A stretch of 64,000 nt of DNA from an uncultured Pelagibacteraceae bacterium (GTDB taxonomy: Bacteria > Pseudomonadota > Alphaproteobacteria > Pelagibacterales > Pelagibacteraceae), in NCBI GenBank assembly GCA_902633125.1, contig CACPEZ010000003.1, positions 1 to 64,000 of the forward strand. Direction: 5' to 3'. Made by a program: the position numbers and the translations under genes. The notes beneath the pieces are model-generated. The model worked only from the letters and a program-made list of their open reading frames with translations. It was not told the origin of the DNA and did not search any database. Positions 15,031 to 59,080 of the stretch are shown here, one piece after another; within the stretch, counting starts at the first letter, position 1, and each line of letters opens with the position of its first letter.

Positions 15031-16317
15031 TTAATTAGAGAAACCATACTTTCTAAGTCTCACATCACCAGTTCTAGCATGAGCTTCCATACCTTCATAT
15101 CTAGAAATTCTAGCAGCTGCAGCACCAACTTCTTTGTTAGATTCTTTATTCATCTTTTGGTAAGTGACTGTTTTTATAAATTTTCCAACGTATAAGCCTC
15201 CAGTATATTTTCCTGCACCTTTTGTTGGTAGAATATGATTTGGTCCAGAGCATTTATCTCCATATGCAACTGTTGTTTCTTCACCTAAAAATAAAGAACC
15301 ATAATTTTTAAGATTTTTTAAATACCAGTCTAAGTTTTCAGCTTGAACCTCCAAATGTTCAGGTGCATATTCATCACTCACTTTCATCATTTCTTCTTTG
15401 GTATCACACATAATTACTTCTCCATAATCTCTCCATGCAGCATCAGCATTATTTCTGTTATGTTCAGGTAGTTCTTGAATAATTTCTGGAACTCTTTTCA
15501 TAACATAATCACATAAAGATTTATCAGTAGTGTAAAGCCAAGCTGGAGAGTCAGGACCATGTTCAGCCTGTCCAACTAAATCATAAGCAATTATTTCTTT
15601 ATCAGCTGTATGATCTGCAATAATGCCTATTTCGGTTGGTCCTGCAAACAAATCAATTCCAACTTTTCCAAATAAAATTCTTTTAGACTCTGCTACAAAT
15701 TTATTTCCAGGTCCAACAATCATATCTACTTCAGGATTACCAAAGCAACCATAAGCTAGTGCACCAATTGCTCCTATACCGCCAATGTTCATAATTACAT
15801 CTGCACCACAAAGGTTAGCTGTATAAATTATAATTGGGTTTGCACCATTTGAATCTTTTGGTGGACTTGTTGCAATTACATTCTTTACTCCTGCAACTTT
15901 TGCAGTTGTGACACTCATTATAGCAGAGGCGATATTGTTATATCTTCCACCTGGCACATAACACCCAACAGTATTTACAGGTATTAATTTTTGTCCTGCT
16001 ATTAAACCAGGTGATAATTCAACTTCTGAGTCTTTTCCAAGATTTTCAAGCTGGTGTTCTGCAAACTTCCTAACTCTTTCATGAGAAAACTGAATATCGT
16101 CTTTAATCTTTTGATCTAAGGTTTTATTTATTTCTTCAATTTTTTCTTTGCTAACAATTATATCACCTTCATAATTATCAAATTTTTTTAAAATATCTTT
16201 AACCCCTTGGTCTTTTGTTTTTTCTAAATCTTTTAAAATAGAACTTACTTTAGTTCTTGTTTCATCTTCACCTGTAAATGCAGTTTTTTCAGCTTTCTTT
16301 ATATAAGTAATTGCCAT
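15031..16317 (-). CDS. hpsN: Sulfopropanediol 3-dehydrogenase-like (HisD family, HpsN type)
   Basis: A 428 aa NAD-dependent, zinc-containing dehydrogenase of the histidinol dehydrogenase superfamily. Known HpsN oxidises (R)-2,3-dihydroxypropanesulfonate to (R)-sulfolactate. Conserved blocks include GCYVPGGRYNNIASAIMS, VDMIVGPGNKFVAESKRILFG and IDLFAGPTE. The C-terminal LPTKGAGKYTGGLYVGKFIKTVTYQ region is the HpsN pattern; biosynthetic HisD has a different sequence there. The ribosome-binding site GAGGAAAG is good. It follows a phosphate acetyltransferase gene on the same strand, and suyAB for sulfolactate cleavage lies elsewhere in the window. Exact substrate is inferred; another polyol or amino alcohol is possible. 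Confidence 0.8.
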   Translation of the reverse strand: MAITYIKKAEKTAFTGEDETRTKVSSILKDLEKTKDQGVKDILKKFDNYEGDIIVSKEKIEEINKTLDQKIKDDIQFSHERVRKFAEHQLENLGKDSEVELSPGLIAGQKLIPVNTVGCYVPGGRYNNIASAIMSVTTAKVAGVKNVIATSPPKDSNGANPIIIYTANLCGADVIMNIGGIGAIGALAYGCFGNPEVDMIVGPGNKFVAESKRILFGKVGIDLFAGPTEIGIIADHTADKEIIAYDLVGQAEHGPDSPAWLYTTDKSLCDYVMKRVPEIIQELPEHNRNNADAAWRDYGEVIMCDTKEEMMKVSDEYAPEHLEVQAENLDWYLKNLKNYGSLFLGEETTVAYGDKCSGPNHILPTKGAGKYTGGLYVGKFIKTVTYQKMNKESNKEVGAAAARISRYEGMEAHARTGDVRLRKYGFSN

Positions 16318-16376
16318 TATCTTTCCTCTAATTTTATAAATGTTTAAATTATAAAAGATGTTTATTCAACAGAAGT

Positions 16377-17288
16377 TTAATCTAAAGCAACAACAGCTGC
16401 AGCTATAGAAGCAAGTCTTGCTGTCGCATCATCTGATCTACTTGTTATAACAACAGGTACTTTACCTCCAACAACTACGCCTGCTGCACATGCTCCCATA
16501 AAATAAATCATCATTTTTACAAGCGCATTTCCAGTTTCGACATTTGGAACTAATAATACATCAGCTTCTCCAGCAACTATATTCTCAATTCCCTTAATAG
16601 AAGCAGATTTTTTTGAAATACTATTGTCAAATGCTAAGGGTCCAAATATATCAGCATTAAAATTTTCTTTAGTTGCTAATTCAGTCAATTCTTTAGCTTC
16701 AACCGAACTCTGTACACTATCAATAACTTCCTCTGTTGCTGAAAGAACGGAAATCTTTGGTCTCGGAATATTAATTCTATGACTAAAATCTATAACATTT
16801 CTTAAAATATGCATTTTAGTTTTTAAGTTAGGAGAAACATTCAACGCTCCATCGGTTATGATTAATGGTTTATCATCTTTTTGTAATGTCATATGCCAAA
16901 TATGACTTAGTCTTGTTTTTCCAATTAATTTATATTCTCTTTTAAGAACTTCTTTCATCAATATATCAGTATGAATATGTCCTTTTACAATAATTTTTAC
17001 TTTATCTTCCGATGCAAGTTTTGTTGCAATTCCAGCCGTATTATTTTCAACTGGTTCATTAATTATTTCAAAATTTGATATATCAAATTTAAGTTCATCT
17101 GCGCATTCTTGTATTTTTTGTTTATCACCTATTAATATTGGGGTGATCAATTTTTCAGAGACAGCATCCATTACCGACATCATTGGTAATTTTTTACCCG
17201 CATTTACAATGGCTGCTTTTACTCCTCTTTTTTGATGAGCTATATTAAGTAGATTAACAGGGCAAACTGTGGATTTATCAGATAACAT
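16377..17288 (-). CDS. pta: Phosphate acetyl/butyryltransferase
   Basis: A 303 aa cytoplasmic acyltransferase converting acetyl phosphate (or butyryl phosphate) and CoA to acyl-CoA and phosphate. The C-terminal signature is AGEADVLLVPNVETGNALVKMM followed by GGKVPVVITSRSDDATAR; SKKSASIKGI is the substrate loop. Length matches the short single-domain family. In a genome with Xsc, which releases acetyl phosphate, this enzyme is the expected step into central metabolism (inference). It lies 59 nt upstream of the hpsN-like gene, probably one transcript. Confidence 0.87.
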   Translation of the reverse strand: MLSDKSTVCPVNLLNIAHQKRGVKAAIVNAGKKLPMMSVMDAVSEKLITPILIGDKQKIQECADELKFDISNFEIINEPVENNTAGIATKLASEDKVKIIVKGHIHTDILMKEVLKREYKLIGKTRLSHIWHMTLQKDDKPLIITDGALNVSPNLKTKMHILRNVIDFSHRINIPRPKISVLSATEEVIDSVQSSVEAKELTELATKENFNADIFGPLAFDNSISKKSASIKGIENIVAGEADVLLVPNVETGNALVKMMIYFMGACAAGVVVGGKVPVVITSRSDDATARLASIAAAVVALD

Positions 17289-17372
17289 ATGAGTTTAAAT
17301 ATTTGTTATGGTTCTAAATATCAATATTTTTTATTACGTTCGATATAAAAATAGTTTAAAATTGAATAAACG

Positions 17373-18221
17373 ATGGAGATAGTTACAAAAATTGCACCTA
17401 TAGCGTTAGCACTTATAATGTTAGGTCTTGGATTGGGCTTATCAACTAGAGATTTTTTAAGAGTTATAAATAATCCAAAAGATTTTACAGTCGGAATAAT
17501 TTGTCAATTAATCCTTCTCCCAATCGTTGCTTATATTTTACTTTTAATATTAAGATTACCAGTTGAATTAGCTTTAGGATTAATGATTATTGCTGCTGCT
17601 CCTGGAGGAGTAACATCAAATGTCTTAACAAAATTTGCAAATGGAGATGTTGCATTATCTATTTCGTTAACAGCAGTAGGTAGTTTAATTAGTATTTTTT
17701 CTGTTCCATTTATTGTTTTTTCTTCAGCAAAATTATTAGGTGTAACTGATTTATCCTCAAGTATTACGATGACTGGTATTGCTCTTAAAATGGCACTAGT
17801 TGTAACTATACCAGTAATTCTAGGAATGATAATTAGAAGATTTGCTGAAAACTTTATTTCTTCTAATATTAATATTGTAAATAGAATTACAGGTATTTTG
17901 TTTATTGTTGTATTTGCAGCAATATGGATTGAGGAAAGAGAAAATATAATATCATACTTAGGTCAAGCAGGTTTAGCTGTTTTAATATTAAACGTAGTTA
18001 TGATGACTTTGGCATTTTACATTGCAAAAGGTTTTGCAACTGGAATACCACAGAGAAAATGTATTTCTTTAGAATGTGGATTACAAAATGGAACTTTAGC
18101 TGTATTTGTAGCAACACAAATTTTCAATGATGTCGCTTACATGGTTCCCACAGCTGCTTATGCATTAATAATGTATATAACTGGATTTATATTTATATAT
18201 ATTCTTAAAAATTCTAATTAA
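17373..18221 (+). CDS. BASS-family (bile acid:sodium symporter-like) transporter
   Basis: A 282 aa membrane protein with nine to ten helices. The family hallmarks are LGLGLGLSTRDF near residue 20, AAAPGGVTSNVLTKFANGDVALS (about 70-92) and LECGLQNGTLAVFVATQIF (about 225-243), the crossed discontinuous helices that bind sodium. Bacterial BASS proteins carry pyruvate, pantoate, glycolate or sulfated steroids, so the substrate is open. It is divergent from the pta-hpsN operon, which allows coregulation with it. The 3' end overlaps the convergent regulator by 8 nt. Confidence 0.9.
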   Translation: MEIVTKIAPIALALIMLGLGLGLSTRDFLRVINNPKDFTVGIICQLILLPIVAYILLLILRLPVELALGLMIIAAAPGGVTSNVLTKFANGDVALSISLTAVGSLISIFSVPFIVFSSAKLLGVTDLSSSITMTGIALKMALVVTIPVILGMIIRRFAENFISSNINIVNRITGILFIVVFAAIWIEERENIISYLGQAGLAVLILNVVMMTLAFYIAKGFATGIPQRKCISLECGLQNGTLAVFVATQIFNDVAYMVPTAAYALIMYITGFIFIYILKNSN

Positions 18222-19176
18222 GATTTATTTGATTGTAGGTTCTTTTTATAAAAACATTTATAGATTTTAAATTTTCATCTTGGATTATCGACATATCTTT
18301 AAAATTTTGTTTGCTGACATCAAAATTTATCAATTTATTTTTGTCTAAAGAAATAAATTTATTTTTAATTAATTTCTTGATTTTTCTTACAACTGTTGGT
18401 CTTGGTATTCCTGTTATTTCAGAAATAGACATTGCATTAATTCCTTTTATTTTTTTATTAATAATTTTATCTCTCCATTTATCTAAATAACTATCAACTC
18501 CTTTAAGTTGCCTTCCAATTTTTGAATTATTATTCAAAATTATAGTTGCCAAAATAGTAAATATTTCCATATCACCAAAATAATTTTTCCACCTCAAACA
18601 GTAAGGGAATAAAAATTTATAAAATTGATACCAGCAAAATGAGAAATTATGTTTTATTAAGTTATTAATTTCATTACTGGACATTTCATTTTTTATAACT
18701 TTTTCTTCTTTTAAAATTTGACTAAAAACAGACAAAAGTGTGCATATATTTTTTAATGTATCATTTGGCTGTGTTGAATTGTAAGCACTTCTATCTATTG
18801 TAATCTTCTTGCCTTTTTTTTTAATTATTCCCTTTTTTTCCAGGAATATAACTTTTCTTCTGACACTTTCTTTTGGTATTTGAAGATCCTTTGATATTCT
18901 TATAAGGTTAATTTTCTCAATATCTAATGTTTTATCCTTATAAAAATCATTGAAAGTAATATTTAAATTATTTCTTCTGTAAAAATCAAACTGCTTACTA
19001 ATCAAATAAATTAAAATTGTGTAAGTATCTATGTCTTTGAACACTTTATAAGCACCGATTGTCCATTCAGACATAAGTTTTAAAAAAAAAGGACTTAAAA
19101 TATCAAAATGATTTTTGAAAATTTTATCGATAAGCTCATCATCTAGTTCGGAATTTACACTTGGTAGCTGCTTCAT
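18214..19176 (-). CDS. Putative transcriptional regulator with two winged-helix domains
   Basis: A 320 aa protein that looks internally duplicated. In the first half, a helical segment (IDTYTILIYLIS) precedes a winged helix with ISKDLQIPKESVRRKVIFLEKKGII. In the second half, MEIFTILATIIL precedes ISEITGIPRPTVVRKIKKLIKNKFI. Both show the MarR/Crp-like recognition-helix pattern xPxxxVxRKxxxLxxxxxI. I do not recognise a named family. Its own upstream region holds two near-identical 15 bp direct repeats, which could be its binding sites. No ligand domain is obvious, and autoregulation is an inference. Confidence 0.75.
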   Translation of the reverse strand: MKQLPSVNSELDDELIDKIFKNHFDILSPFFLKLMSEWTIGAYKVFKDIDTYTILIYLISKQFDFYRRNNLNITFNDFYKDKTLDIEKINLIRISKDLQIPKESVRRKVIFLEKKGIIKKKGKKITIDRSAYNSTQPNDTLKNICTLLSVFSQILKEEKVIKNEMSSNEINNLIKHNFSFCWYQFYKFLFPYCLRWKNYFGDMEIFTILATIILNNNSKIGRQLKGVDSYLDKWRDKIINKKIKGINAMSISEITGIPRPTVVRKIKKLIKNKFISLDKNKLINFDVSKQNFKDMSIIQDENLKSINVFIKRTYNQINLN

Positions 19177-19186
19177 AATGTATCAA

Positions 19187-19233
19187 AACCCAATTTGAAC
19201 AAATTTAAAACTTGAGTCAACCCATTTTGAACA
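19187..19233. repeat. Paired 15 bp direct repeats, candidate operator
   Basis: AACCCAATTTGAACA at 19187-19201 and AACCCATTTTGAACA at 19219-19233 differ at one position and are spaced 32 bp start to start, about three helical turns. They lie in the 101 bp divergent promoter region between the two-winged-helix regulator and the 68 aa gene. Same-face tandem sites next to a protein with two DNA-binding halves suggest an autoregulatory operator. Confidence 0.55.
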
Positions 19234-19277
19234 GTTAAATTCTGTAAAATTTTTTTACTATATGATTTAATAATTTA

Positions 19278-19484
19278 ATGAGTACTGAAAGCTTTAACAG
19301 AACATCTAATATTGAAATACCTGAAAAAAAACAGAGAGTAATTCGAATGTCCCCTCGTAAAGTAAATATAGATGTTCTAAAGAAACGAGTAATCACTGAA
19401 AAGAAAAAAGAGGCACTTCAGTCAAAAATAATAATACTTTCAGTCTGTTTATCTATCGGAATACTAGGTTATTTTGCAGGTTAA
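19278..19484 (+). CDS. Small tail-anchored-like membrane protein, unknown
   Basis: A 68 aa protein: a polar, very basic N-terminal region (RVIRMSPRKVNIDVLKKRVI) and one C-terminal hydrophobic helix (IIILSVCLSIGILGYFAG). It is divergent from the two-winged-helix regulator, sharing the repeat-containing spacer, and its 3' end overlaps the convergent Ldh2-family gene by 4 nt. No function recognised; the codon use looks like its neighbours. Confidence 0.65.
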   Translation: MSTESFNRTSNIEIPEKKQRVIRMSPRKVNIDVLKKRVITEKKKEALQSKIIILSVCLSIGILGYFAG

Positions 19485-20485
19485 CTAGCTAAAAGAATAT
19501 CTAAATCCTTTTTAATATTTTTTGGAATTTTTATAGATTTTTTAGAGTTTGTTTTTGTTCTTAAAAACTTTTGCTCGCCAGGATAAAAGATTTTTTGTCT
19601 TTTTAAATTAGGTATTTTTTTTATTCTTTTAATATTTTTTTTTATCTCTTTTTTATAATCTTTAACAAATAGATTGTCTTTAAATGCTAAAAATAAGTGA
19701 CCGATATTTTGCGGGCCAGAAAAATCATCAAATGGGTCTTTTACTTTGCCACCATGATTACTTCCAACAAATACTCCAGTTAAAATATCTACCATCCAGG
19801 CTAATCCAGATCCTCTAAATCCAGCTATTGGAAGTTGTACCCCAGCAAGAGCTTCTTTTGCATTTGTAGTTGGTTTACCAAATTTGTTTAAAGCAACTCC
19901 ATATGGTATTTTTTTTCCTAACTTTTCTGCAATCCTAATTTTACCTCTATTAATCATAGACATTGATGTATCTAGTATAAATGGAACCTTGCTATTAGTT
20001 TGAGTTCCAAAACATATTGGATTAGTTCCAAAGACTGATTTTTTCCCTCCAAAAGGCGCAATAGCAGGAGGAGCATTTGTAAATGCGAAAGTTATTAAAT
20101 TTTTTTTAACCGCTTGCTCGACGTAGTATCCAGATAGACCGTAATGTCCGCTGTTTTTTACAGCAACTAACCCAATCCCTGTTTTTTTTGCATTTTGTAT
20201 AGTTTTTTTAATAGCCTCATCTGCTGCAACAAAACCTATAGAATTATCAGCATCAATTATTGATATAGATTTTGATATATTTTTTACAGTAATTTTAGGT
20301 CTCGGATTAATGACTTTTTTTGAGATTCTTTCACAATACATTTTTAAACGAGACAATCCATGTGAAGGCGCACCCACAAGCTCTGCATTCATAATTGCAT
20401 TTGCGCAAACTATAGAGTGTTTTCTACTTAATTTAAAATTAGTAAAAATTTTAATTATTAAATTTTTAAGCTCTTTTTCATTCAT
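19481..20485 (-). CDS. Ldh2-family NAD(P)-dependent 2-hydroxyacid dehydrogenase
   Basis: A 334 aa member of the malate/L-lactate dehydrogenase type 2 family. Landmarks are GAPSHGLSRLKMYCERI, VKNSGHYGLSGYYVE (catalytic His region), PFGGKKSVFGTNPICFG and GFRGSGLAWMVDILTG. The family includes malate, sulfolactate (ComC), ureidoglycolate and delta-1-piperideine reductases. A sulfolactate role would fit the HpsN and SuyAB genes of this window but is inference only. It is a single gene, divergent from the iron-type ABC operon. Confidence 0.85.
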   Translation of the reverse strand: MNEKELKNLIIKIFTNFKLSRKHSIVCANAIMNAELVGAPSHGLSRLKMYCERISKKVINPRPKITVKNISKSISIIDADNSIGFVAADEAIKKTIQNAKKTGIGLVAVKNSGHYGLSGYYVEQAVKKNLITFAFTNAPPAIAPFGGKKSVFGTNPICFGTQTNSKVPFILDTSMSMINRGKIRIAEKLGKKIPYGVALNKFGKPTTNAKEALAGVQLPIAGFRGSGLAWMVDILTGVFVGSNHGGKVKDPFDDFSGPQNIGHLFLAFKDNLFVKDYKKEIKKNIKRIKKIPNLKRQKIFYPGEQKFLRTKTNSKKSIKIPKNIKKDLDILLAS

Positions 20486-20635
20486 AATTTATGTAAACAT
20501 AATTGATTTGAAAATTAAACTATAAATTGAATATTTTTTTTATTTATTAAAATTATCTTTAAATTTAAAGTAACAAAAGATTAACATTAGTCGTTTAAAT
20601 TTATTATCATTAACTAATAAAAAAGTGAGGGATAT

Positions 20636-21673
20636 ATGAAAAATATACTTAAAGTAGCTTCTATGGCTCTAGTTCTTTCATTAACACTTTTCGGTATCAC
20701 AAATAAAGCTTCAGCTGCAAAACTAACTTTATATTGCAGTGTTGAAATAGACGTTTGTGAAATGCTTGAACAAGCTTATGAAAAAGAAACTGGAACAAAA
20801 GTTGCTATGACAAGAGCAAGTAGTGGTGAAACTTTTGCAAAAATAAAAGCAGAAGCATCAAATCCAAAAGGAGATGTTTGGTTTGGGGGAACAGGTGATC
20901 CACATTTGACTGCAGCACAAGAAAATTTAACTGAGAAATATAAATCTGTTCATTTTAATGATTTATTACCTGCAGCTCAGAACCAGGCAAAAAATGCTGA
21001 TTTTAAATCAGTAGGAATTTATGTTGGTGCATTAGGTTTTGGATACAACAAAGATCTTTTAGCAAAAAAGGGTCTTCCAGCTCCAAAATCGTGGATGGAT
21101 TTAACAAAACCAATATATAAAGGTGAAATACAAGTAGCAAATCCAAACTCATCTGGAACTGCTTACACAACCTTAGCTACTATTCTTCAAATATTTGGTG
21201 AAGATAAAGGTTGGGATTACATGAAAAAACTTCATGCAAACATAAATACATATACTAAATCTGGTTCTGCACCAATTAAGGCAACTGGTAGAGGTGAAAA
21301 CTTAATCGGTATTTGTTTCCAACATGATGGTGTGAAACAAACAAAAAAAGGTTTGCCGGTTGTTACGGTCTCTCCTGCTGAAGGAACTGGTTATGAAGTT
21401 GGATCTATGAGTATTATTGCAGGTGCAAGAAATATGAAGGAAGCTAAAAAGTTTTATGACTGGGCTTTAAGTCCTGCTATTCAAACTATGGTCTTCACTT
21501 CAGGAAAATCTTTGCAAGTGCCATCTAATACTAAAGCAAAAGCTGATCCTGATGCTCCAGACTTATCAACAATAAACTTAATTGATTATAATTTTAAAGT
21601 TTATGGAGATAAAAGTACTAGAGCGAGTTTGTTATCCAAATGGGATAACGATGTTTCTGTAATTCCTAGATAA
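20636..21673 (+). CDS. ABC transporter substrate-binding protein (AfuA/FbpA-like)
   Basis: A 345 aa periplasmic protein. The signal peptide is residues 1-28 (ending KASA). The mature protein starts KLTLYCSVEIDVCEML and continues TRASSGETFAKIKAEASNPKGDVWFGGTGDPHL, the AfuA-type pattern, with SSGTAYTTLATIL in the hinge region. The adjacent tyrosine pair of classical ferric-binding FbpA is not evident. AfuA homologues bind hexose phosphates and other relatives bind iron or 2-aminoethylphosphonate, so calling it an iron transporter is not secure. First gene of a three-gene operon, with a GTGAGGG ribosome-binding site. Confidence 0.87.
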   Translation: MKNILKVASMALVLSLTLFGITNKASAAKLTLYCSVEIDVCEMLEQAYEKETGTKVAMTRASSGETFAKIKAEASNPKGDVWFGGTGDPHLTAAQENLTEKYKSVHFNDLLPAAQNQAKNADFKSVGIYVGALGFGYNKDLLAKKGLPAPKSWMDLTKPIYKGEIQVANPNSSGTAYTTLATILQIFGEDKGWDYMKKLHANINTYTKSGSAPIKATGRGENLIGICFQHDGVKQTKKGLPVVTVSPAEGTGYEVGSMSIIAGARNMKEAKKFYDWALSPAIQTMVFTSGKSLQVPSNTKAKADPDAPDLSTINLIDYNFKVYGDKSTRASLLSKWDNDVSVIPR

Positions 21674-21681
21674 GGAATTAA

Positions 21682-23880
21682 ATGAGAGGGCTCGTTATCT
21701 GTTGGATGCTCATTGGAGTATTGGGTTTCCTAATATTTCCATGGTATGTAACAGGTGACGGGTTTTTCTCAATAAATTGGATATTAGAATATTCTTTAGA
21801 AGATTACGGTTCTGTATTACCACAGGTATTTATAAATAAAAAATATTGGCTTCTACCTTTAATTGTCCCTTTATTTTTTCCATTATCAACTTTAAAATTA
21901 AATCAGAATAATCCCATTTATTCCAAAATTTTCTTGTACTCAGGATTGTTTGGCATTTTTTATTTTATTCTTCAGGGGTTTTCAATTGGTATAAGAGGGT
22001 GGAATTTTGAAATCTTTCAATCGATTTTTGGCGATGTAGAAAATCAATTTGGAGTAGGGTCAGGTGCAGTTCTTTTATGCTCTACATTTATTTTTTACAT
22101 TACACACGGGCTATCCTCACGTGGGTGGTTGAATGGAGATAATTTTATTGTAGGCAGTATAGGAAGCATAATTATTTTAGTTTCAACTTTCGTTTTTTTT
22201 CCTATTTTTAGAATGTTTGCTGTTGCCTTTAAAGGCACAGAAGGTGGATATGAAATTAGTAATTTTTCAACCAAAATATTTAATAAAGGAATTTGGGGCC
22301 TTGATTGTTTGTATAGTGATTATGCATGTGGTGTTTTTTGGAACACTGTTACTATGGGAACACTTACAGCTTTCTCTTCAACAATTTTGGGTTTAGGTTT
22401 TGCTTTATTAATTGCAAGAACAAGTTTTAAATTTAAAAAAACGATTAGAATTTTATCTGTTTTACCAATCATAACACCTCCATTTGTAATCGGTTTAGCA
22501 ATAATAATATTATTCGGTAGAACGGGAGTTGTAAGTTCTTTTCTTGAATGGGCATTTGAGATTGAGCCCTCGAGATGGATTTATGGTTTACCAGGAATAT
22601 GGTTTGCACAAACTCTTGCTTTTACACCTATTGCTTTTTTAGTTTTGATAGGAGTTGTTGAAAGTGTAAGTCCTGCAATGGAAGAGGCTTCACAAACATT
22701 GAGAGCTTCAAAATGGCAAGTTTTTAAAACTGTTACATTACCTTTAATGAGACCTGGAATTGCAAATGCATTTTTGCTTGGGTTTATTGAAAGCTTAGCT
22801 GATTTTGGAAATCCACTTGTACTAGGTGCCGAATATGATGTTTTATCTACAGAAATATTCTTTGCAATTGTAGGTGCACAGTATGATGAAACTAAAGCTG
22901 CAATATTAGCAATGATTTTATTAACTGTGGTTCTAGTAGTGTTTTATCTTCAGAATCAATGGTTGGGAAAAAAATCCTATATTTCAATTTCTGGCAAAGG
23001 TGATAGTGGAGTTCATCCTGAATTACCAAATAATACTAAGTGGATAATTTACTCAACTGTTCTACCTTGGGCACTCCTTACATTTATAATTTATATAATG
23101 ATTATGTTTGGTGGATTTGTAGAGATGTGGGGTGTCGATCACAGTTTTACGTTAAGACATTATGTTGAAGCATTTAGTGTTGAATGGGTTAAAGAAAGAG
23201 GAATTTTGTGGACTGGTACTGCGTGGAATTCTTTTAACACTACTTTTGCGATAGCATTAATTTCATCATTTCCTACTGCTGCAATAGGTATTTTAACAGC
23301 ATATCTTCTTACAAGACACAAGTTTAAAGGAAAAAATGCTTTCGAATTCGGTACAATGTTAAGTTTTGCAATACCTGGAAGTGTTATTGGTGTGAGTTAC
23401 GTTTTTGCGTTTAATGTTCCGCCACTTGAACTTACAGGAACAGGAATTATTTTGGTAATCGCTTTTGTATTTAGAAATATGCCGGTTGGGGTTAGGGCAG
23501 GTATAGCTTCAATGAATCAATTAGATCCTCATTTAGATGAAGCATCATCAACATTAAATGCATCTAGTTCTCAAACTTTTAGGAATGTAATTCTTCCATT
23601 GCTTAAACCTGCAATTACTGCTTCTTTAGTTTTTAGTTTTGTTAGAGCAATGACGGCAATTAGTGCTGTTATATTCCTTGTTAGTGCTAATTATGATTTA
23701 GCTGTCTCATATATATTAGGAAGATTAGAAAACAATGATTATGGTCTAGCAATTGTTTATTCTTCTGCATTAATTGTTGTTATGTTATTTACAATAACAT
23801 TAATGCAATTAATAATAGGTAAACGAAAATTAGGAAGAAGAGAAGAAACAGCAGGAATATTACAAGGAAATTTTGGATAA
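21682..23880 (+). CDS. ABC transporter permease, double-length (AfuB/FbpB-like)
   Basis: A 732 aa inner-membrane protein with two fused permease halves. An N-terminal extension with about four helices (residues 1-175) is followed by half 1 with the EAA loop EEASQTLRASKWQVFKTVTLP and half 2 with DEASSTLNASSSQTFRNVILP. One polypeptide thus supplies the whole pore. It starts 8 nt after the binding-protein stop and its stop overlaps the ATPase start, so all three are one operon. Substrate as for the binding protein. Confidence 0.9.
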   Translation: MRGLVICWMLIGVLGFLIFPWYVTGDGFFSINWILEYSLEDYGSVLPQVFINKKYWLLPLIVPLFFPLSTLKLNQNNPIYSKIFLYSGLFGIFYFILQGFSIGIRGWNFEIFQSIFGDVENQFGVGSGAVLLCSTFIFYITHGLSSRGWLNGDNFIVGSIGSIIILVSTFVFFPIFRMFAVAFKGTEGGYEISNFSTKIFNKGIWGLDCLYSDYACGVFWNTVTMGTLTAFSSTILGLGFALLIARTSFKFKKTIRILSVLPIITPPFVIGLAIIILFGRTGVVSSFLEWAFEIEPSRWIYGLPGIWFAQTLAFTPIAFLVLIGVVESVSPAMEEASQTLRASKWQVFKTVTLPLMRPGIANAFLLGFIESLADFGNPLVLGAEYDVLSTEIFFAIVGAQYDETKAAILAMILLTVVLVVFYLQNQWLGKKSYISISGKGDSGVHPELPNNTKWIIYSTVLPWALLTFIIYIMIMFGGFVEMWGVDHSFTLRHYVEAFSVEWVKERGILWTGTAWNSFNTTFAIALISSFPTAAIGILTAYLLTRHKFKGKNAFEFGTMLSFAIPGSVIGVSYVFAFNVPPLELTGTGIILVIAFVFRNMPVGVRAGIASMNQLDPHLDEASSTLNASSSQTFRNVILPLLKPAITASLVFSFVRAMTAISAVIFLVSANYDLAVSYILGRLENNDYGLAIVYSSALIVVMLFTITLMQLIIGKRKLGRREETAGILQGNFG

Positions 23881-24935: not shown

Positions 24936-24938
24936 GGA

Positions 24939-27662: not shown

Positions 27663-27690
27663 TAGCTGACTTTATATAAAATATTTACTT

Positions 27691-27724
27691 AAAAAAATAG
27701 GCACCAATAAAATTGGCGCCTATT
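27691..27724 (-). terminator. Rho-independent-type hairpin after tauA
   Basis: Arms 27696-27708 and 27712-27724 form a 13 bp stem (one G-U wobble on the minus strand) with a 3 nt loop. A run of U follows on the minus strand (27691-27697). It lies 20 nt after the tauA stop and before tauB. This would cause partial termination, giving more binding protein than ATPase and permease. Confidence 0.75.
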
Positions 27725-27744
27725 TAATTATTCTAATCTTTAAA

Positions 27745-50788: not shown

Positions 50789-50894
50789 CCTTTATTAACA
50801 TTTTTTTATTGAGATGAGATTATTAGTCAGTTGAACTAATATTTTTTATAGATTATGAGCTTAGATTAGTATTATATTTAGCGGAGATAATAAT

Positions 50895-51689: not shown

Positions 51690-51728
51690 TATGATTGATA
51701 AAATTTTAAAGAAAGGTAATAAGTAGAT

Positions 51729-52199
51729 ATGTCAACTTTTGTATACATGACGAGATGTGATGGTTGTGGTCATTGTGTAGATATATGTCCATCAGATATC
51801 ATGCACATAGACGAAACTATTAGAAGAGCAAAAAATATAGAACCAAATTTTTGTTGGGAATGCTATTCATGCGTTAAGGCATGTCCCAATCATGCAATTG
51901 ATGTAAGAGGATATGCTGACTTTGCTCCTATGGGTCATAGTGTTAGAGTTAGAAGAGAAGAAGAAAAAGGAACTATTTCTTGGAGAATTAAATTTAGAAA
52001 CGGTACAGAGAAGAATTTTGTATCACCAATAACAACAAAACCTTGGGGAAAATTCATACCAAAATTAGCTGAAGCTGATACTCCTAATCAAGGAGAGATT
52101 AACTCACAAATTTTATATAATGAGCCACATGGTTTAAATACTGAAAAAGATTTACCAACATTAGATAAGAATTCATTTAAGCAAGGCGTTTACTATTAA
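51729..52199 (+). CDS. aprB: Adenylylsulfate reductase beta subunit
   Basis: A 156 aa ferredoxin-like subunit with two 4Fe-4S clusters: RCDGCGHCVDICPSDIMH and CWECYSCVKACPNHAIDV. Residues 85-156 form the tail that wraps AprA. It transfers electrons from the AprA flavin to the membrane partner. In organisms without sulfate respiration AprBA runs in reverse, oxidising sulfite plus AMP to APS. Its stop overlaps the aprA start by one base. Confidence 0.95.
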   Translation: MSTFVYMTRCDGCGHCVDICPSDIMHIDETIRRAKNIEPNFCWECYSCVKACPNHAIDVRGYADFAPMGHSVRVRREEEKGTISWRIKFRNGTEKNFVSPITTKPWGKFIPKLAEADTPNQGEINSQILYNEPHGLNTEKDLPTLDKNSFKQGVYY

Positions 52200-54058
52200 T
52201 GGCTAAGCACAAAACTATCATCGAAGAATGTGACGTACTAGTTGTCGGTGGAGGTATGGCTGGAACAGGGGCTACCTTTGAGGCAAGACACTGGGGAAGA
52301 GATTTAAAAATAATCTGTGTTGAAAAAGCAAATATAGATAGAAGTGGTGCCGTTGCACAAGGTCTTTATGCTATTAACTGTTATATGGGAATGCAGTGGG
52401 GTGAGAATATGCCAGAGGACCATGTACGGTACGCTAGAAATGATTTGATGGGTCTTGTTAGAGAAGATCTAGGTTATGACATGGCACGTCATGTAGACTC
52501 AACTGTTCACATGTTTGATGAATGGGGTCTTCCGATGATGAAAAACAAAGAAACTGGAAGATATCAAAGAGAAGGTAAGTGGCAAATTATGATACACGGT
52601 GAAAGTTACAAACCAATTGTAGCTGAAGCTGCAAAAAAATCTGCTGATAAAATTTATAACAGAATAATGATTACCCATCTTTTAAAAGATGAAAAAAATC
52701 CAAACCGAATAGCAGGCGCAGTAGGCTTTAATGTTAGAACTGGAAATTTTCACGTATTTAAATCTAGAACAGTAGTTGTTTCTGCTGGAGGAGCTTCGCA
52801 CATATTTAAACCAAGAGCAGTCGGTGAAGGTATGGGTAGAACATGGTATGCACCTTGGAGTAATGGATCTGCTTATGCATTACCTATTCAAGCAGGTGCA
52901 AAAATGACTCAAATGGAAAATAGAATTGTACTTTGTAGATTTAAAGATGGTTATGGTCCAGTTGGAGCATATTTCTTGCATTTAAAAACATATACTCAAA
53001 ACGCTAATGGCGAAAATTATGAGAAGAAATGGTATGATGCTACTAAAGAATTAGTAGGAGAATATATAGACCATCATCCAACACCAACTTGTTTGAGAAA
53101 TCACGCATTTATTCAAGAAACAGCTGCAGGTGGTGGACCAATCCACATGGTTACAAAAGAAGCTTTCCAAGATCCACACTTAGAAACGGTTGGATGGGAA
53201 AACTTCTTGGGAATGACAGTTGGACAAGCAGTAGTTTGGGCGTCTCAAAATATTGATCCAAAATATACAAATCCTGAATTAACAACTTCGGAGCCATATG
53301 TAATGGGATCTCATGCTACATGTTCAGGGGCATGGGTTAGTGGACCAGAAGATATAGCACCTGATGAATATTTTTGGGGATACAATAGAATGATGACTAT
53401 TGATGGATTATTTGGAGCAGGAGATGCAGTTGGTGGAAGTGCTCATAAGTTTTCATCAGGCTCATTCACAGAAGGAAGGTTAGCGTCTAAAGCTGCTGTT
53501 AAATATATTCAAGATAAAAAAGCTGATGATATCGAAGTTTCTGATGCACAATTAGAGAAGCTTAAAGAAGAAATATTTAAACCAATTGAGAATTATACAG
53601 TTGGCAGAAATGAAATTACTGGAGGAACCGTTTCTCCAAGCTATATTTTACCTATACAAGGACTACAAAGACTACAAAAAATTATGGATGAATATTGTGG
53701 TGGATTAACAAATAATTACATGACAAACGATAACCTGCTTAAAAAAGGCTTAGAACAACTACAATTACTTCAAGAAGACTTAGATCATGTGGGAGCTGAA
53801 GATTATCACCAATTGATGAGAGCATGGGAACTTAAGCATAGAGCTGTTACTTCAGAATGTGTTGCTCATCATACGTTATTTAGAGAAGAAACGCGTTGGC
53901 CAGGCTATTATTATAGAGGCGATCATATGAAACTTGATGATGAAAACTGGCACTGTTTAACTGTTTCTAGAAGAGATCCTGAAACTGGAAAATTTGAAAT
54001 GGAGAAAAAGCCTGTTTATCATATCGTTGATGATAAAGAGAAGAAGCAAGCTTCCTGA
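52199..54058 (+). CDS. aprA: Adenylylsulfate reductase alpha subunit
   Basis: A 619 aa FAD protein. The dinucleotide site is DVLVVGGGMAGTGATFEARHWG, followed by VEKANIDRSGAVAQGLYAINCYMG. VSAGGASHIFKPRAVGEG and FGAGDAVGGSAHKFSSGSFTEGR are conserved AprA segments. It converts sulfite and AMP to APS when run oxidatively. The likely sulfite sources here are Xsc, SuyAB and the persulfide dioxygenase. ATP sulfurylase (sat), needed to recover ATP from APS, is not in the window. Confidence 0.96.
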   Translation: MAKHKTIIEECDVLVVGGGMAGTGATFEARHWGRDLKIICVEKANIDRSGAVAQGLYAINCYMGMQWGENMPEDHVRYARNDLMGLVREDLGYDMARHVDSTVHMFDEWGLPMMKNKETGRYQREGKWQIMIHGESYKPIVAEAAKKSADKIYNRIMITHLLKDEKNPNRIAGAVGFNVRTGNFHVFKSRTVVVSAGGASHIFKPRAVGEGMGRTWYAPWSNGSAYALPIQAGAKMTQMENRIVLCRFKDGYGPVGAYFLHLKTYTQNANGENYEKKWYDATKELVGEYIDHHPTPTCLRNHAFIQETAAGGGPIHMVTKEAFQDPHLETVGWENFLGMTVGQAVVWASQNIDPKYTNPELTTSEPYVMGSHATCSGAWVSGPEDIAPDEYFWGYNRMMTIDGLFGAGDAVGGSAHKFSSGSFTEGRLASKAAVKYIQDKKADDIEVSDAQLEKLKEEIFKPIENYTVGRNEITGGTVSPSYILPIQGLQRLQKIMDEYCGGLTNNYMTNDNLLKKGLEQLQLLQEDLDHVGAEDYHQLMRAWELKHRAVTSECVAHHTLFREETRWPGYYYRGDHMKLDDENWHCLTVSRRDPETGKFEMEKKPVYHIVDDKEKKQAS

Positions 54059-54067
54059 CCATTTTAG

Positions 54068-54418
54068 ATGAGTATTGTCGACAAATCAGACGAAGAAATC
54101 ATTAAAATCGCCGATCCTATCTGGGATAACATGGTTAGATGTTCCAACATGAAAGATTATGGTGGTTTTACCAGGGATTTATCATCACAAATGCTTTATG
54201 GAGCCAACGAAGTAGAGCTCGGTAAGCAATGGGCGAGCAATAAGCTGATCTCAAGCCTTAAAGAAGGGTGTAAGGCTATAGGCTGTCTGAGAAGAGGCTT
54301 GTACGTAACTGTTATCTATAAACAAAACAGTACAGAGATACCAGGAGACTTTTTAGGCCGACTTGTCCTTGGAGAAGAGGGAGATGAGGTCAAAGTCTTC
54401 GGGGCAACTATTTTTTAA
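54068..54418 (+). CDS. Conserved-looking hypothetical after aprA
   Basis: A 116 aa soluble protein (MSIVDKSDEEIIKIADPIWD...) with a strand-rich second half (RRGLYVTVIYKQNSTEIPGD, RLVLGEEGDEVKVFGATIF). Its last strands resemble the end of a small alpha+beta barrel such as NTF2, but I do not claim it. It begins 9 nt after aprA. Base use is clearly more G/C-rich than its neighbours (GCC, CTC, CTG, GTC and GGG codons), so it may have arrived separately or be under unusual codon selection. Confidence 0.75.
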   Translation: MSIVDKSDEEIIKIADPIWDNMVRCSNMKDYGGFTRDLSSQMLYGANEVELGKQWASNKLISSLKEGCKAIGCLRRGLYVTVIYKQNSTEIPGDFLGRLVLGEEGDEVKVFGATIF

Positions 54419-54469
54419 ATTTAATTAAATATTATTTGCATTTAATAAAACTTGTGGTATTTCGCGGTT

Positions 54470-54616
54470 ATGCTTCAAGCTTTTAATCAAAATATTAAGA
54501 AAATACCTTTATTAGTTTCAAATCAGCTTTCAAAGATAATTAAATCTTTTCTTTATCTTTTTATATTTTTTACTTGGGCAATTATAATTCTAGGAACATT
54601 TCAAAATTTTATCTAA
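54470..54616 (+). CDS. Small single-span membrane protein (candidate)
   Basis: A 48 aa open frame in the 249 nt gap between the aprA-associated gene and the TauE-family gene. Basic N-terminal part (FNQNIKKIPLLVSNQLSKII) and one hydrophobic helix (SFLYLFIFFTWAIIILGTF). It is in the right orientation but has no strong ribosome-binding site. Tentative. Confidence 0.4.
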   Translation: MLQAFNQNIKKIPLLVSNQLSKIIKSFLYLFIFFTWAIIILGTFQNFI

Positions 54617-54667
54617 TTTATTCTTATAATCATTGACTTTAGATTATGAGAGGAATAGTTAGATTAT

Positions 54668-55753
54668 ATGGAATATTTTCTTCCAATAGCTCAAGTCGAG
54701 ATTAACATACTCTTTATATTTGGTTTAAGTTTAGCAGTTGGTATTCTTTCAGGATTATTTGGTGTAGGCGGTGGATTTTTAATGACACCATTTTTAATAT
54801 TTTTAGGTATTCCACCTGCTTATGCAGTTCCAAATGAAGCAAGCAATATTTTAGGTACATCGGTATCCGGTTCAACAACTCATTATTTAAAAGGTACATT
54901 AGATTATAAAATGGGATTGATGATTGTAGTGGGAGGAACTATTGGAACCTTGCTTGGGATCTTAACTTTTTCCTATTTTCAGGATATTGGAAAAATAAAC
55001 ATCGTTATATCTTTAGCCTACATGTATATCTTGGCTATACTTGGAACTTTAATGCTCATACAAGGAGTATCAGAAATTGATAAAGCTAGAAAAAAAATTG
55101 TTGTTAGAAAAAAATTACATACGCATTATTGGATACATGGACTACCTTTCAGAATGCGTTTTAAAAAATCAAAGGTTTATGAAAGTGCATTTACTCCAAT
55201 TATCATTGGTTTAATTGTTGGGTATATTGCAGCAATTATGGGAGTAGGTGGTGCATTTATTTTGGTTCCTGCAATGATTTATATTATTGGAATGCCTACC
55301 AAATTAATTCCTGGTACATCTTTGTTTGTCACAATATTTGTTAGTGCAATAGTAACAGTTCTGCATGCCTTTAATTATGGAACAATTGATCTTGTTTTAG
55401 TTTTTGTACTAATACTTGGCTCTATTATAGGGGTTCAGTTTGGTCAAAAAATTGGAGAAAAAGTTGATAGCTCAGAATTTAAAACAATCTTAGCAGTGCT
55501 TTTATTATTAGTTGGAATTGCAATTGCTTATGACACTTTTATTAAAGAAGACGTAATCGTTGAAACAGTAGCAAATGGAACTAAAAACCTTGGTAACATT
55601 GCACAGTTTATTTTAGATTATTCTAAAGACCTTCCAGTATTTTATGGACTTACTTCAGTTGTTTTAGCAGTAGTTCTTGGAATTGGAGCTGCAATTTTAA
55701 GAAATTATATCTCTAAGTGGAATAAAGCAAGAGAAGCTAAGCTTAAAGCTTAA
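54668..55753 (+). CDS. TauE/SafE-family sulfite exporter-like permease
   Basis: A 361 aa membrane protein. The duplicated signatures are [26 protein letters not shown] and [26 protein letters not shown] cytoplasmic loop around residues 140-170 and an extra C-terminal helix (about 330-350) make it longer than the 247 aa paralogue. Placed between aprBA and suyAB/xsc, sulfite export is the natural inference. Its stop overlaps the convergent suyB end. Confidence 0.88.
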
Positions 55754-56916
55754 GCACTTCTATATAATTTAGTCATTACAAATTCTCTATGACCTAATGC
55801 TTCAGCACAAGTTAATCTTCCGTTTGCAACTCTTATCGTAGCTTTAATTAATTCATCACCAGCTTCATCTAAATTCATTTCTCTTGATAAGATTTTAGAT
55901 ACATCAACATCAATATGTTCACTCATGGTTCTAGCAGTCAAAGGATTAGCAGTTAGTTTTACTACTGGTTCAATTGGGTTTCCAATTATATTTCCTTGTC
56001 CAGTTGGAAATAGGTGAAGATTAAATCCTCCAGCAGCTTGTAAAGTAACACATTCAGCAGCAGCTGATGAGGTATCCATAAAGTATAAGCCTGGACCTTT
56101 GGTTGGTTCTTCTGCGGGCTCTAGTACATCAATAAATTTACATCCCCCAATTTTTTGAAAGTTTCCAAATGCTTTTTCTTCAATTGTAGTAAGTCCGCCA
56201 GCTATGTTTCCAGCTGTTGGTTGACTTTCGGAAAGATCGTCTGTTGCTTCTTTTAAGATGAAATCATTATAGGAACTCCAAGTTTTTCTAAACTTCTCTT
56301 GAGCCTCAGGAGTCTTTCCTCTTTTTTCACACACAGTTTCAGCGCCTGTTAGCTCAGATGTTTCACCAAAACATAAATGAACACCTAGGGGCTCTAATTT
56401 ATCCATTAAATTTCCAACTGTCGGATTTGATGCTAATCCTGATGTTGTATCAGATTCTCCGCATTTAACAGATATCCATAAATCACTTATAGGACGTTCT
56501 TCTCTTTGTTTCTCAGATGCCCAAATTGAAAATTCTTGAGCTTTTTTTGAAACTCTTGCGATAGTATCTATATCTCCAACACCTTCTATACTAAAACCTT
56601 CAACTGGTTTTCCAGTCGTTGCAATTGCATCAACAATTCTTTTTGTCCATTTAGGCTCAATACCTATTACTATAACTGCTGCAACATTTGGATTTTTTCC
56701 TGTTCCAATCATTGTTCTAAAATGAAGCTCTAAGTCTGCTCCAAATTGTAATCTTCCATAAGAGTGTGGAAGTGCAATCGTACCTTTAATATTATTAGCT
56801 ACAGCTTCAGCACAAGCATTTGAGATATCATCAACAGGTAAGATTATTACATGATTTCTTGTACCTGTTCTTCCATCTTCTCTTTTATATCCTAAAAACG
56901 TTTTTGGAATTTCCAT
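55750..56916 (-). CDS. suyB: (R)-sulfolactate sulfo-lyase large subunit
   Basis: A 388 aa member of the altronate/galactarate dehydratase family, in the SuyB branch. [62 protein letters not shown] and [19 protein letters not shown] are the landmarks. With SuyA it splits sulfolactate to pyruvate and sulfite. The separation of a SAF-domain subunit and the neighbouring xsc support SuyB over a sugar-acid dehydratase. Confidence 0.9.
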
Positions 56917-56917
56917 T

Positions 56918-57205
56918 TTACCACTTTTTAGTTTTTACGTTATGAACATGTACATGCTCACCTTTTTTAATTGATTTAACTACTTTGCCAATATCATGCC
57001 CGTACTTTAATATTGTATCTCCCTCGTTAAGATCAGTCATAGCAATTTTATGACCCAAAGGTATTTCATCCATCGATTGAATTTTTATTGATTTATCATT
57101 TTCCATAATCCAGCAATCACAGTCTTGTTTAGGAGTAATTTTTTCAATAACTACAACACCTACATTGTCTTTTTCATCGTGGATTATAATATCTGTGCCG
57201 GCCAT
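56918..57205 (-). CDS. suyA: (R)-sulfolactate sulfo-lyase small subunit (SAF domain)
   Basis: A 95 aa SAF-domain protein starting at ATG 57205 ([21 protein letters not shown]); a TTG 11 codons upstream is possible but less likely. [26 protein letters not shown] and [29 protein letters not shown] match SuyA/UxaA N-domains. It lies one base before suyB in the same operon and faces xsc. Family certainty is high. Confidence 0.9.
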
Positions 57206-57295
57206 TGTGACGATTTCTTTGTTTGAAATTCGACCCAATTTATATATGAATTGGGCACTTTGACAATTAAAAAATATAATTAAGAAGGATTTGAT
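57206..57295. promoter_or_regulatory. Divergent promoter region of suyAB and xsc
   Basis: A 90 bp spacer drives two sulfite-releasing pathways in opposite directions. AATTG (57249-57253) and CAATT (57264-57268) form a short dyad that could be a regulator site. TTGGGC and TATAAT (57251 and 57275) are 18 bp apart, but the leader would be very short. An AAGAAGGA ribosome-binding site precedes xsc. Confidence 0.45.
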
Positions 57296-59080
57296 ATGGC
57301 TAAAATGACAACCGAAGAAGCTTTTGTAAAAGTTTTACAAATGCATGGTATCGAACATTCGTTTGGTATTATTGGTTCTGCATTCATGCCTATTTCTGAT
57401 CTTTTCCCAGAAGCTGGAATAACTTTTTGGGATGTTGCTCATGAAACAAATGGTGGACTGATTGCTGATGGTTACACGAGAGCAACTGGAAAAATGTCTA
57501 TGGTGATTGCTCAAAATGGTCCAGGTATTACAGGACTTGTTACACCAATTAAGACAGCTTACTGGAATCATACTCCACTTCTTTTAGTTACACCACAAGC
57601 TGCAAACAAAACTATGGGCCAAGGTGGTTTTCAAGAAGTAGAGCAAATGAATTTATTTAAAGACATGGTGTGTTATCAAGAAGAAGTTAGAGACCCATCA
57701 AGAATGGCAGAAGTTTTAAACAGAGTAATAGAAAAAGCATTTAGAGGGTCAGCGCCTGCACAAATAAATGTACCAAGAGATTTTTGGACACAAGTGATAG
57801 ATATAGAGTTACCTCCAATTGTAAGATTTGAAAGACAAGGTGGTGGAAAAGATGCTGTTGATAGAGCTGCAAAATTATTATCAGAAGCAAAATTTCCAGT
57901 AATTTTATCTGGTGCTGGAGTTGTTATAGGCGATGCCATTGATGATTGTAAAAAATTAGCAGAAAAATTGGATGCACCTGTGTGTAATGGTTATCAACAT
58001 AACGATAGCTTTCCAGGAAGTCATCCATTAGCTGTTGGCCCATTAGGTTATAATGGATCTAAAGCTGCAATGGAATTAATTTCAAAAGCTGATGTAGTTT
58101 TAGCATTAGGAACAAGATTAAATCCATTTTCAACATTGCCAGGATATGGAATTGATTACTGGCCAAAAGATGCAACAATTATTCAAGTAGATATGAATCC
58201 CGATCGTATTGGTTTAACTAAGAAAGTTACAGTTGGTATTTGCGGTGATGCTAAAATGGTAGCTCAACAGATATTAGAAAAACTTTCATCAAACGCAGGA
58301 GATAATGGTAGAGAAGATAGAAAAAATCTAATTCATCAAACTAAATCTGCATGGTTGCAAACTCTTACAAGTTTAGATCATGAGGATGATGATCCAGGCA
58401 CCGTATGGAACAAAGAAGCAAGAGAAAGAGATAAAGATAGAATGTCTCCAAGACAAGCATGGAGAGCTATTCAAGCTGGAATGCCAGAAGATGTTATAAT
58501 TTCAAGTGATATTGGAAATAATTGTGCAATTGGTAATGCATACCCAACATTTGAAAAACCAAGAAAATATTTGGCACCAGGTTTATTTGGACCATGTGGT
58601 TATGGATTTCCATCGATTCTTGGAGCAAAAATTGGATGCCCAAATACTCCAGTTATAGGTTTTGCTGGTGATGGAGCTTTTGGAATAAGCATGAATGAAA
58701 TGAGTTCGTGTGCAAGAGAAGAGTGGCCGGCAATAACGATGGTAATTTTTAGAAATTATCAATGGGGTGCTGAAAAAAGAAATTCAATTTTATGGTTCGA
58801 TGATAATTTTGTTGGAACAGAGTTAGATCCAGAGTTAAGTTATGCAAAAGTTGCTAATGCATGTGGTTTAAAAGGTGTTATTGCAAATACAATGGAAGAA
58901 ACTACAAAAGCTATTAAACAATCGTGTGAAGATCAGAAAAAAGGTATTACGACATTTATCGAAATAATTCTAAATCAAGAATTAGGTGAGCCATTCAGAA
59001 GAGATGCTATGAAAAAACCAGTTAAAGTAGCAGGTATAAGCAAGAGTGATATGAGACCTCAAAAGTCTCTTGTTAGTTGA
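57296..59080 (+). CDS. xsc: Sulfoacetaldehyde acetyltransferase
   Basis: A 594 aa thiamine pyrophosphate enzyme converting sulfoacetaldehyde and phosphate to acetyl phosphate and sulfite. MTTEEAFVKVLQMHGIEHSFG, AHETNGGLIADGYTRATGKMS (conserved Glu of the TPP fold), NPFSTLPGYGIDYWPKDA and GFAGDGAFGISMNEM with NYQWGAEKRNS (TPP-Mg motif) match Xsc closely. The length is typical. It faces suyAB and is followed by a FAH-family gene after 24 nt. Confidence 0.94.
   Translation: MAKMTTEEAFVKVLQMHGIEHSFGIIGSAFMPISDLFPEAGITFWDVAHETNGGLIADGYTRATGKMSMVIAQNGPGITGLVTPIKTAYWNHTPLLLVTPQAANKTMGQGGFQEVEQMNLFKDMVCYQEEVRDPSRMAEVLNRVIEKAFRGSAPAQINVPRDFWTQVIDIELPPIVRFERQGGGKDAVDRAAKLLSEAKFPVILSGAGVVIGDAIDDCKKLAEKLDAPVCNGYQHNDSFPGSHPLAVGPLGYNGSKAAMELISKADVVLALGTRLNPFSTLPGYGIDYWPKDATIIQVDMNPDRIGLTKKVTVGICGDAKMVAQQILEKLSSNAGDNGREDRKNLIHQTKSAWLQTLTSLDHEDDDPGTVWNKEARERDKDRMSPRQAWRAIQAGMPEDVIISSDIGNNCAIGNAYPTFEKPRKYLAPGLFGPCGYGFPSILGAKIGCPNTPVIGFAGDGAFGISMNEMSSCAREEWPAITMVIFRNYQWGAEKRNSILWFDDNFVGTELDPELSYAKVANACGLKGVIANTMEETTKAIKQSCEDQKKGITTFIEIILNQELGEPFRRDAMKKPVKVAGISKSDMRPQKSLVS

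Follow-up and report, generated by a model that had tools for sequence, protein, structure and literature searches.

Two Sulfonate Hubs in a SAR11 Genome

A 64,000-nucleotide stretch of DNA (hereafter the window) from an uncultured SAR11 bacterium of the family Pelagibacteraceae appears to carry two hubs of genes for organosulfonate catabolism, namely hub A (hpsN to ald, 15031–31349), which would import and transaminate taurine and oxidize (R)-2,3-dihydroxypropane-1-sulfonate (DHPS), and hub B (the HIT-family gene HIT2 to xsc, 50390–59080), which would make and handle sulfite. We put the probability of this reading at roughly 85%. The window corresponds to positions 1–64000 of contig C3 (126,742 bases) in an assembly of 994,499 bases and 37 contigs that is 73.6% complete, and its AprA is 98–100% identical to those of other Pelagibacteraceae genomes, single-cell and others, such as AG-359-G17 and GOM-A1. 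The original prediction had placed hpsN, pta, tauABC, a class III aminotransferase with ald, aprMBA, two TauE permeases, suyAB and xsc in this stretch, as a network taking two marine sulfonates to central carbon and sulfite. All of these genes are open frames located as claimed, each with a fitting family match, which confirms the observation; its interpretation is partly supported.

For comparison we used the 80 best AprA loci, drawn from a set of no fewer than 595 confirmed stretches, further loci fetched from outside the window's genus (eight from genus g8, one from genus g12 and six from the sister family f2), a closed relative (G012; 1,343,202 bases) as the reference for gene order in hub A, and profile counts across 397 genomes of the order, alongside a smaller set of 61 genomes. 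The genes had been described as lying in at least five separate operons; they are better described as two hubs, at 15.0–31.3 and 50.4–59.1 kb, and in G012 hpsN, pta, comC-like, tauCBA, tpa and ald form one contiguous row. As for hub B, orf116, TauE2, SuyB, SuyA and Xsc all lie downstream of aprA in each of the 64 sufficiently long loci among the best 80, and the same block order recurs across SAR11 loci, which argues that these genes stand together by more than chance. All eight g8 loci retain these five genes, and the single g12 locus lacks TauE2.

Predicted DHPS and Sulfolactate Enzymes

The products of hpsN, for an (R)-DHPS 3-dehydrogenase (15031–16317, reverse strand), and suyB, for the large subunit of (R)-sulfolactate sulfo-lyase (55750–56916, reverse strand), share superfamilies with histidinol dehydrogenase (HisD) and sugar-acid dehydratases, respectively. 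This, together with the finding of a single HisD-family gene in the incomplete genome, would fit a reading of the two proteins as exactly those enzymes. However, HpsN scores 510, 507, 506 and 493 bits against four DHPS-dehydrogenase sequences (510 against sulfopropanediol 3-dehydrogenase 8v35 and 493 against (R)-DHPS dehydrogenase 8wwe) as opposed to at most 242 bits against true histidinol dehydrogenases, and it shares 54.5% identity with the protein annotated as HpsN in C. pinatubonensis. Orthologues of HpsN (72–100% identical) occur in 27 of 37 genomes of the genus and in none of 24 sister-family genomes, where the matches are HisD-like at 36–40%. Many genomes of the genus hold, alongside HpsN, a separate HisD-like gene that is 32–35% identical to it, which was not seen in the incomplete genome of the window. 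A passage of PMC11131964 assigns catalysis in R. pomeroyi HpsN to a His, an Asp and a further His; read by motif, all three are present in the window protein (EHLEV, GDK and GPNH, with numbering transferred by eye), and the third residue of the Arg-Tyr-Ser triple differs in it (RYN).

SuyB is 60–70% identical to 12 plasmid records, followed by one more at 59.7% and then by matches at 40%. It is 64% identical to the homologue beside hpsN of C. pinatubonensis, and an HpsN relative lies 3–7 kb from SuyB in 5 of the 12 best plasmid records, including the C. pinatubonensis cluster. SuyB is found in 30 of the 37 genus genomes (one partial) and in 0 of 24 from the other family; suyA, for the small subunit (56918–57238, reverse strand), is assigned by its family match and its conservation in the block. 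An identity of 64–70% to SuyB-like proteins, several of them adjoining hpsN, stands against a score of 123 bits to galactarate dehydratase, and on bit scores, identities and the hpsN-neighboring plasmid records we rejected the HisD and sugar-acid dehydratase assignments as barely credible. Both proteins group with authentic DHPS and sulfolactate enzymes, not outside those clades as a refutation of the prediction would have required, and this placement supports the HpsN–SuyAB route to central carbon and sulfite that had been proposed.

Every gene on the originally predicted list is present, but the list had overlooked a comC-like gene of the LDH2 family (19481–20485, reverse strand), a sulfolactate/malate-type dehydrogenase for which we propose sulfolactate and sulfopyruvate as substrates. 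Its best model is that of L-sulfolactate dehydrogenase (NF040650), reached with 249 bits and below the cut-off of 500. Against solved structures, malate dehydrogenase 1v9n (188 bits) and L-sulfolactate dehydrogenase 2x06 (187 bits) tie, and the protein is therefore not clearly nearer to the latter.

The hps–suy cluster of C. pinatubonensis (NZ_CP080769.1) resembles the window in its proteins (HpsN 54.5%, SuyB 64% and HpsP 41% identical) and runs hpsN–hpsO–MFS–dehydrogenase (in the place of hpsP)–UxaA–UxaA, the hps genes and suyAB forming one group. Here, by contrast, they are divided among two hubs and one further site, and AprMBA accompanies them. For hpsP and a DHPS transporter, which were to be sought in the rest of the genome, there are candidates: 24–29 kb beyond the window end on the same contig (G000:C3:87629-93209; L183:3629-9206) lie genes for a TRAP transporter (DctP/DctM), an NCS1-type permease, the HpsP homologue and a DUF3047 protein. 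Matches to HpsP (E < 1e-70) occur in 10 of the 25 genomes searched (G018, G080, G013, G000, G071, G082, G087, G011, G070 and G012). For HpsO, three further 20-kb stretches of the same contig yielded only a 28% identical short-chain dehydrogenase; no whole-genome search for HpsO was made.

The taurine/DHPS network is, as such, already known in SAR11 from passages of four papers (PMC11131964, PMC12636525, PMC5864207, PMC10356861), since assays of SAR11 HpsN, HpsO and HpsP are in print and the status of suyAB, xsc and aprAB as core or near core has been reported. In a passage of PMC11131964, HpsO and HpsN of HTCC1002 and HpsP of HIMB5 are described as matching the Roseobacteraceae enzymes in their chiral specificity for DHPS, the SAR11 hps genes as not lying in a single operon, and Roseobacteraceae and SAR11 as accounting for more than half of DHPS dehydrogenase transcripts at most Tara stations. 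Published SAR11 DHPS and taurine catabolism (PMC11131964, PMC12636525, PMC5864207) concerns the same lineage, with HpsN/O/P, SuyAB, Xsc, AprAB and split hps genes; the HIT paralogue and the NTF2-fold gene of the block are not discussed in the relevant passages of these papers.

Predicted Taurine Genes

Match strength is uneven among the genes of the taurine route. Xsc, AprA, AprB and Ald score above the curated cut-offs; the importer subunits TauA, TauB and TauC have taurine or sulfonate models as their best-scoring families, all below the NCBI cut-offs. The binding protein TauA (27745–28686, reverse strand) matches a sulfonate/taurine model best, and its best solved relative is taurine-binding 6ssy, at 51 bits. 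It is followed by the ATPase TauB (26865–27662, reverse strand), for which a taurine ABC ATPase model scores best, and by the permease TauC (24939–26864, reverse strand), a protein of 641 residues in which the permease domain occupies only positions 444–640, behind about 440 extra N-terminal residues. The long form also exists in G012 (L185), with 80% identity. By their context, TauABC would function as a taurine importer.

The class III aminotransferase (28860–30221, forward strand) passes the AptA model (575 bits against a cut-off of 500). Among solved relatives listed down to an E of 1e-80, the nearest are β-alanine and ω-amino acid:pyruvate aminotransferases. As both the model and the structures point to ω-aminotransferases, its designation as taurine:pyruvate aminotransferase (Tpa) rests on its neighbors tauABC and ald, the latter an alanine dehydrogenase gene (30231–31349, forward strand). 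The sulfoacetaldehyde acetyltransferase gene xsc (57296–59080, forward strand) reaches 973 bits with TIGR03457 (cut-off 676). A gene for a PTA_PTB-family phosphate acetyltransferase, pta (16377–17288, reverse strand), adjoins hpsN both here and in G012 and is, by context, the partner of Xsc. Family matches and gene context thus support the predicted taurine route (Tpa–Ald–Xsc–Pta) to central carbon and sulfite. Growth of SAR11 on taurine is reported in a passage of PMC5864207.

In the proposed scheme, TauABC would import taurine, which Tpa would transaminate to sulfoacetaldehyde, with Ald returning pyruvate and releasing ammonium. Xsc would convert sulfoacetaldehyde to acetyl phosphate and sulfite, with Pta supplied by hub A. 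DHPS uptake and the use of (S)-DHPS would fall to the TRAP transporter and HpsP beyond the window; HpsN would oxidize (R)-DHPS to (R)-sulfolactate, which SuyAB would cleave to pyruvate and sulfite, and the ComC-like enzyme may interconvert sulfolactate and sulfopyruvate. AprMBA would then oxidize sulfite with AMP to adenosine 5'-phosphosulfate (APS), a direction that we infer, and TauE2 may export sulfite.

Several findings weigh against this two-hub reading. TauABC, the ComC-like protein and the aminotransferase score below the taurine and sulfolactate models or match unspecifically, and the genome is only 73.6% complete. Moreover, in all six loci fetched from the sister family f2, apr and orf116 are kept and suy, xsc and TauE are absent, so that hub B is not an obligate unit.

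Given that hub A is contiguous in G012, three features between its genes in the window appear to be additions. A gene for a BASS-family transporter (17373–18221, forward strand; match below cut-off) has no counterpart between pta and comC in G012, and an overlapping gene encodes a putative helix-turn-helix regulator (18214–19176, reverse strand), with TrmB/Crp matches that are weak and below gathering scores. The third, absent between comC and tauC in G012, is an ABC importer outside the core (binding protein, fused double permease and ATPase; 20636–24935, forward strand). We rejected a role as a sulfonate importer on account of the binding protein, which is nearest to Fe3+-type/AfuA-like proteins (298 and 295 bits) and to a pyridoxal phosphate-binding protein (253 bits), and it more likely takes up a phosphorylated compound than a sulfonate. 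Ahead of hub A, at 11949–14976, SnoaL-like and cupin proteins surround a methionine-synthase-like gene and a sugar-type ABC importer.

Proposed Sulfite Oxidation by AprMBA

The gap that remains in this network is the final disposal of sulfite downstream of AprBA, as the usual last enzyme, ATP sulfurylase (Sat), was not found over cut-off. Of the oxidation module, aprB (51729–52199, forward strand) scores over the cut-off of TIGR02060, and aprA (52199–54058, forward strand) reaches 1002 bits with TIGR02061 (cut-off 642) and is over its family cut-off in 306 of the 397 genomes of the order. The preceding gene, aprM (50895–51689, forward strand), is the proposed membrane partner of APS reductase, assigned by place and size; it shows a weak QmoC match and no Pfam match. 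This role of aprM, and its presence in Apr lineage I, are described in a passage of PMC2211403.

A search of the rest of the genome for sat had been suggested. Sat (TIGR00339) was found over cut-off in none of the 61 genomes of the smaller set and none of the 397, with weaker matches in 1 and 18, respectively; the 18 score 122–256 bits, and 15 of these genomes also carry aprA. Sat was likewise not found in the closed genome of G012, nor in the 73.6% complete genome of the window. CysN was over cut-off in 0 of 25 genomes, where matches of 400 residues to the CysN model are taken to be EF-Tu; CysD was not searched for. With no Sat over cut-off, the predicted disposal of sulfite by AprBA is incomplete as a route. 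AprMBA–Sat systems, as described in passages on Apr lineage I (PMC2211403) and on aprABM with sat in SAR116 (PMC8547437), share the order aprM–aprB–aprA and the AMP-dependent first step; the window differs in having no Sat or CysN over cut-off and in having orf116 and, in many loci, HIT2 in the block.

A passage of PMC12636525 counts suyAB and xsc, together with a sulfur dioxygenase, among the core or near-core genes of Pelagibacteraceae and describes aprAB as core genes under the strongest purifying selection, with a proposed part in sulfite removal; a passage of PMC5864207 likewise proposes that SAR11 apr detoxifies sulfite. According to PMC10356861, ATP sulfurylase is missing from most SAR11, and sulfate excretion on taurine is so far undemonstrated in SAR11 culture. 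The latter, and the presence of TauE2 (54668–55753, forward strand; family match), a putative sulfite exporter conserved in all 64 long loci, are consistent with AprMBA acting as a sulfite buffer or at a trace rate while most sulfite leaves through TauE2, in which case no exit from APS would be needed. Against this, the selection on aprAB argues for more than buffering, aprM, aprB, aprA and orf116 are tightly packed, and family f2 retains apr without a nearby TauE. We regard export as the main outlet as possible, if short of an even chance.

A first TauE/SafE permease gene (35826–36569, forward strand; family match) lies outside both hubs. Between ald and this gene, at 32362–33751, are genes for a cytochrome c', a cytochrome c, a cytochrome b561 and a DUF4396 protein. 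At the xsc end of hub B, a fumarylacetoacetase-family hydrolase gene (59105–59962) lies immediately 3' of xsc and is missing from the blocks of many relatives.

Two Candidate Genes in the apr Block

Directly 3' of aprA lies orf116 (54068–54418, forward strand), a conserved and so far unnamed partner of aprA. It follows aprA immediately in 80 of the 80 nearest loci and in 16 of 16 others (L186–L201), i.e., in every SAR11 apr locus examined, at a median gap of 15 bases (79 loci measured). Over 44 sequences, 36 of 116 columns are invariant. The AlphaFold (AF2) model, with a mean pLDDT (predicted local distance difference test) of 91, has an NTF2-like fold; the best Foldseek match has an E of 8e-4, and the top rows of VIA-align (Z about 9–11) are for the most part NTF2-like or cystatin-like, with some designed proteins among them. 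No Pfam or NCBIfam match was obtained, and relatives were absent from the plasmid collection, the only search made for them outside SAR11. At the apr-less locus of one genome (G078), orf116 was not seen in the frame list, although no orf116 search was made there.

HIT2 (50390–50788, forward strand; HIT family match), the second HIT-family protein, is a candidate APS phosphorylase or hydrolase. Its 132-residue frame has a 4-base overlap with pabC and ends 106 bases upstream of aprM, a position that a HIT gene holds in 57 of the 66 loci covering this place (median gap 100 bases). In a tree of 51 HIT proteins, from which aprM-side copies more than 90% alike had been removed beforehand, 24 housekeeping HinT-like proteins separate from 27 block copies with a support of 100/100, the copy of locus L079 being a long branch of unsure place. 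The H.H.H motif is present in 69 of 69 cases. We propose that HIT2 may catalyze the last step, splitting APS with phosphate (to ADP and sulfate) or with water (to AMP and sulfate), with no ATP formed.

Two further patterns favor this proposal. The overlap with pabC suggests that HIT2 may instead belong to a pab operon; yet in three of the eight g8 loci (L194, L197 and L199), which have no nearby pab genes, a HIT copy stands behind suyB with a one-base overlap, and this recurrence in the sulfite block beside a different neighbor argues for a link with sulfite or APS and not with pab. Within the genus, at least two HIT genes were counted by hand in 214 of 251 genomes with aprA (E < 1e-20, partial ones included) compared with 1 of 20 without (Fisher p 1e-13), a split that physical linkage and incomplete genomes alone could yield. 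Across 25 aprA-less genomes, PabA is matched at best with 32–41% identity (weaker ones 19–27% to 43%), and the apr-side pab genes therefore seem to be absent there too, so that a test of whether HIT stays with pab did not discriminate.

Activity on APS has precedents in the HIT superfamily. Hint4 and DcpS reportedly act on APS as both hydrolases and phosphorylases, going by the title of a 2010 paper in the reference list of PMC7072326, and Fhit releases AMP from APS according to a passage of PMC7072326. HIT2 shares with these proteins the superfamily, the H.H.H motif and the proposed reaction, the last of which it also shares with ADP sulfurylase (adenylylsulfate:phosphate adenylyltransferase). 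However, sequence similarity is low (56 bits to the best solved relative), HIT substrates cannot be read from sequence, and the activity of HIT2 is that of a candidate only. HIT2 is also missing before aprM in 9 of the 66 loci, and in 8 of the 9 genomes concerned every HIT is HinT-like; despite the presence of apr, it is absent from five of eight g8 loci, the g12 locus and six of six f2 loci. At least two HITs are also present in all 13 genomes of the genus that have a weak Sat-like gene. No link between HIT and apr was found in the literature searched, which was open-access only.

Taking these points together, we consider it on balance unlikely that HIT2 performs the last step; an exit from APS by way of a HIT protein can be tested but is unproven, and it is not universal. 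A fuller scheme for a Sat-less SAR11 AprMBA pathway, in which the HIT paralogue splits APS, the NTF2-fold protein is a fourth Apr component and lineages without HIT2 use another exit, is distinctly unlikely as a whole.

A small nucleotidyltransferase (126–130 residues; motifs GRWQPWHxGH and ISATKIR), found in 301 of the 397 genomes, offers a different exit, as it could be a miniature ATP sulfurylase beside apr outside the genus of the window. It adjoins apr in all 15 fetched non-genus loci as well as in L109 and L113 (examples at L199:5902-6976 and L187:10847-11726). In family f2, by hand count, all 32 genomes with a full aprA have it and none of the 18 without, with an APS-kinase-like P-loop protein as its neighbor. 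In the genus of the window, by contrast, it lies away from apr, in the window's own genome on another contig beside a P-loop gene (G000:C4:77872-78240), and its occurrence in aprA-less genomes such as G099 and G101 indicates that it is not apr-specific there. In G078, which has no aprA match, the nucleotidyltransferase is kept and adjoins TenA-like and TauE-like genes (the latter two recognized by eye) with no apr gene between them. Its neighbors are TenA-like or APS-kinase-like P-loop proteins, and in G310 it shares a frame with the P-loop part; this pairing or fusion with a P-loop kinase also resembles NadR-type salvage enzymes, which counts against a miniature Sat. Since the gene persists without aprA, we judge this role very improbable.

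SAR11 belong to the most abundant bacterial groups in the ocean, and among the sulfur compounds of algae taurine and DHPS are major ones. Sequence alone does not decide the fate of APS. With ATP sulfurylase missing from most SAR11 (PMC10356861), it is likewise undecided whether seawater gets the sulfur back as sulfite or as sulfate and whether the cell gains energy from it. The conserved block around AprMBA offers two named candidate genes, HIT2 and orf116, for this question of sulfite disposal.

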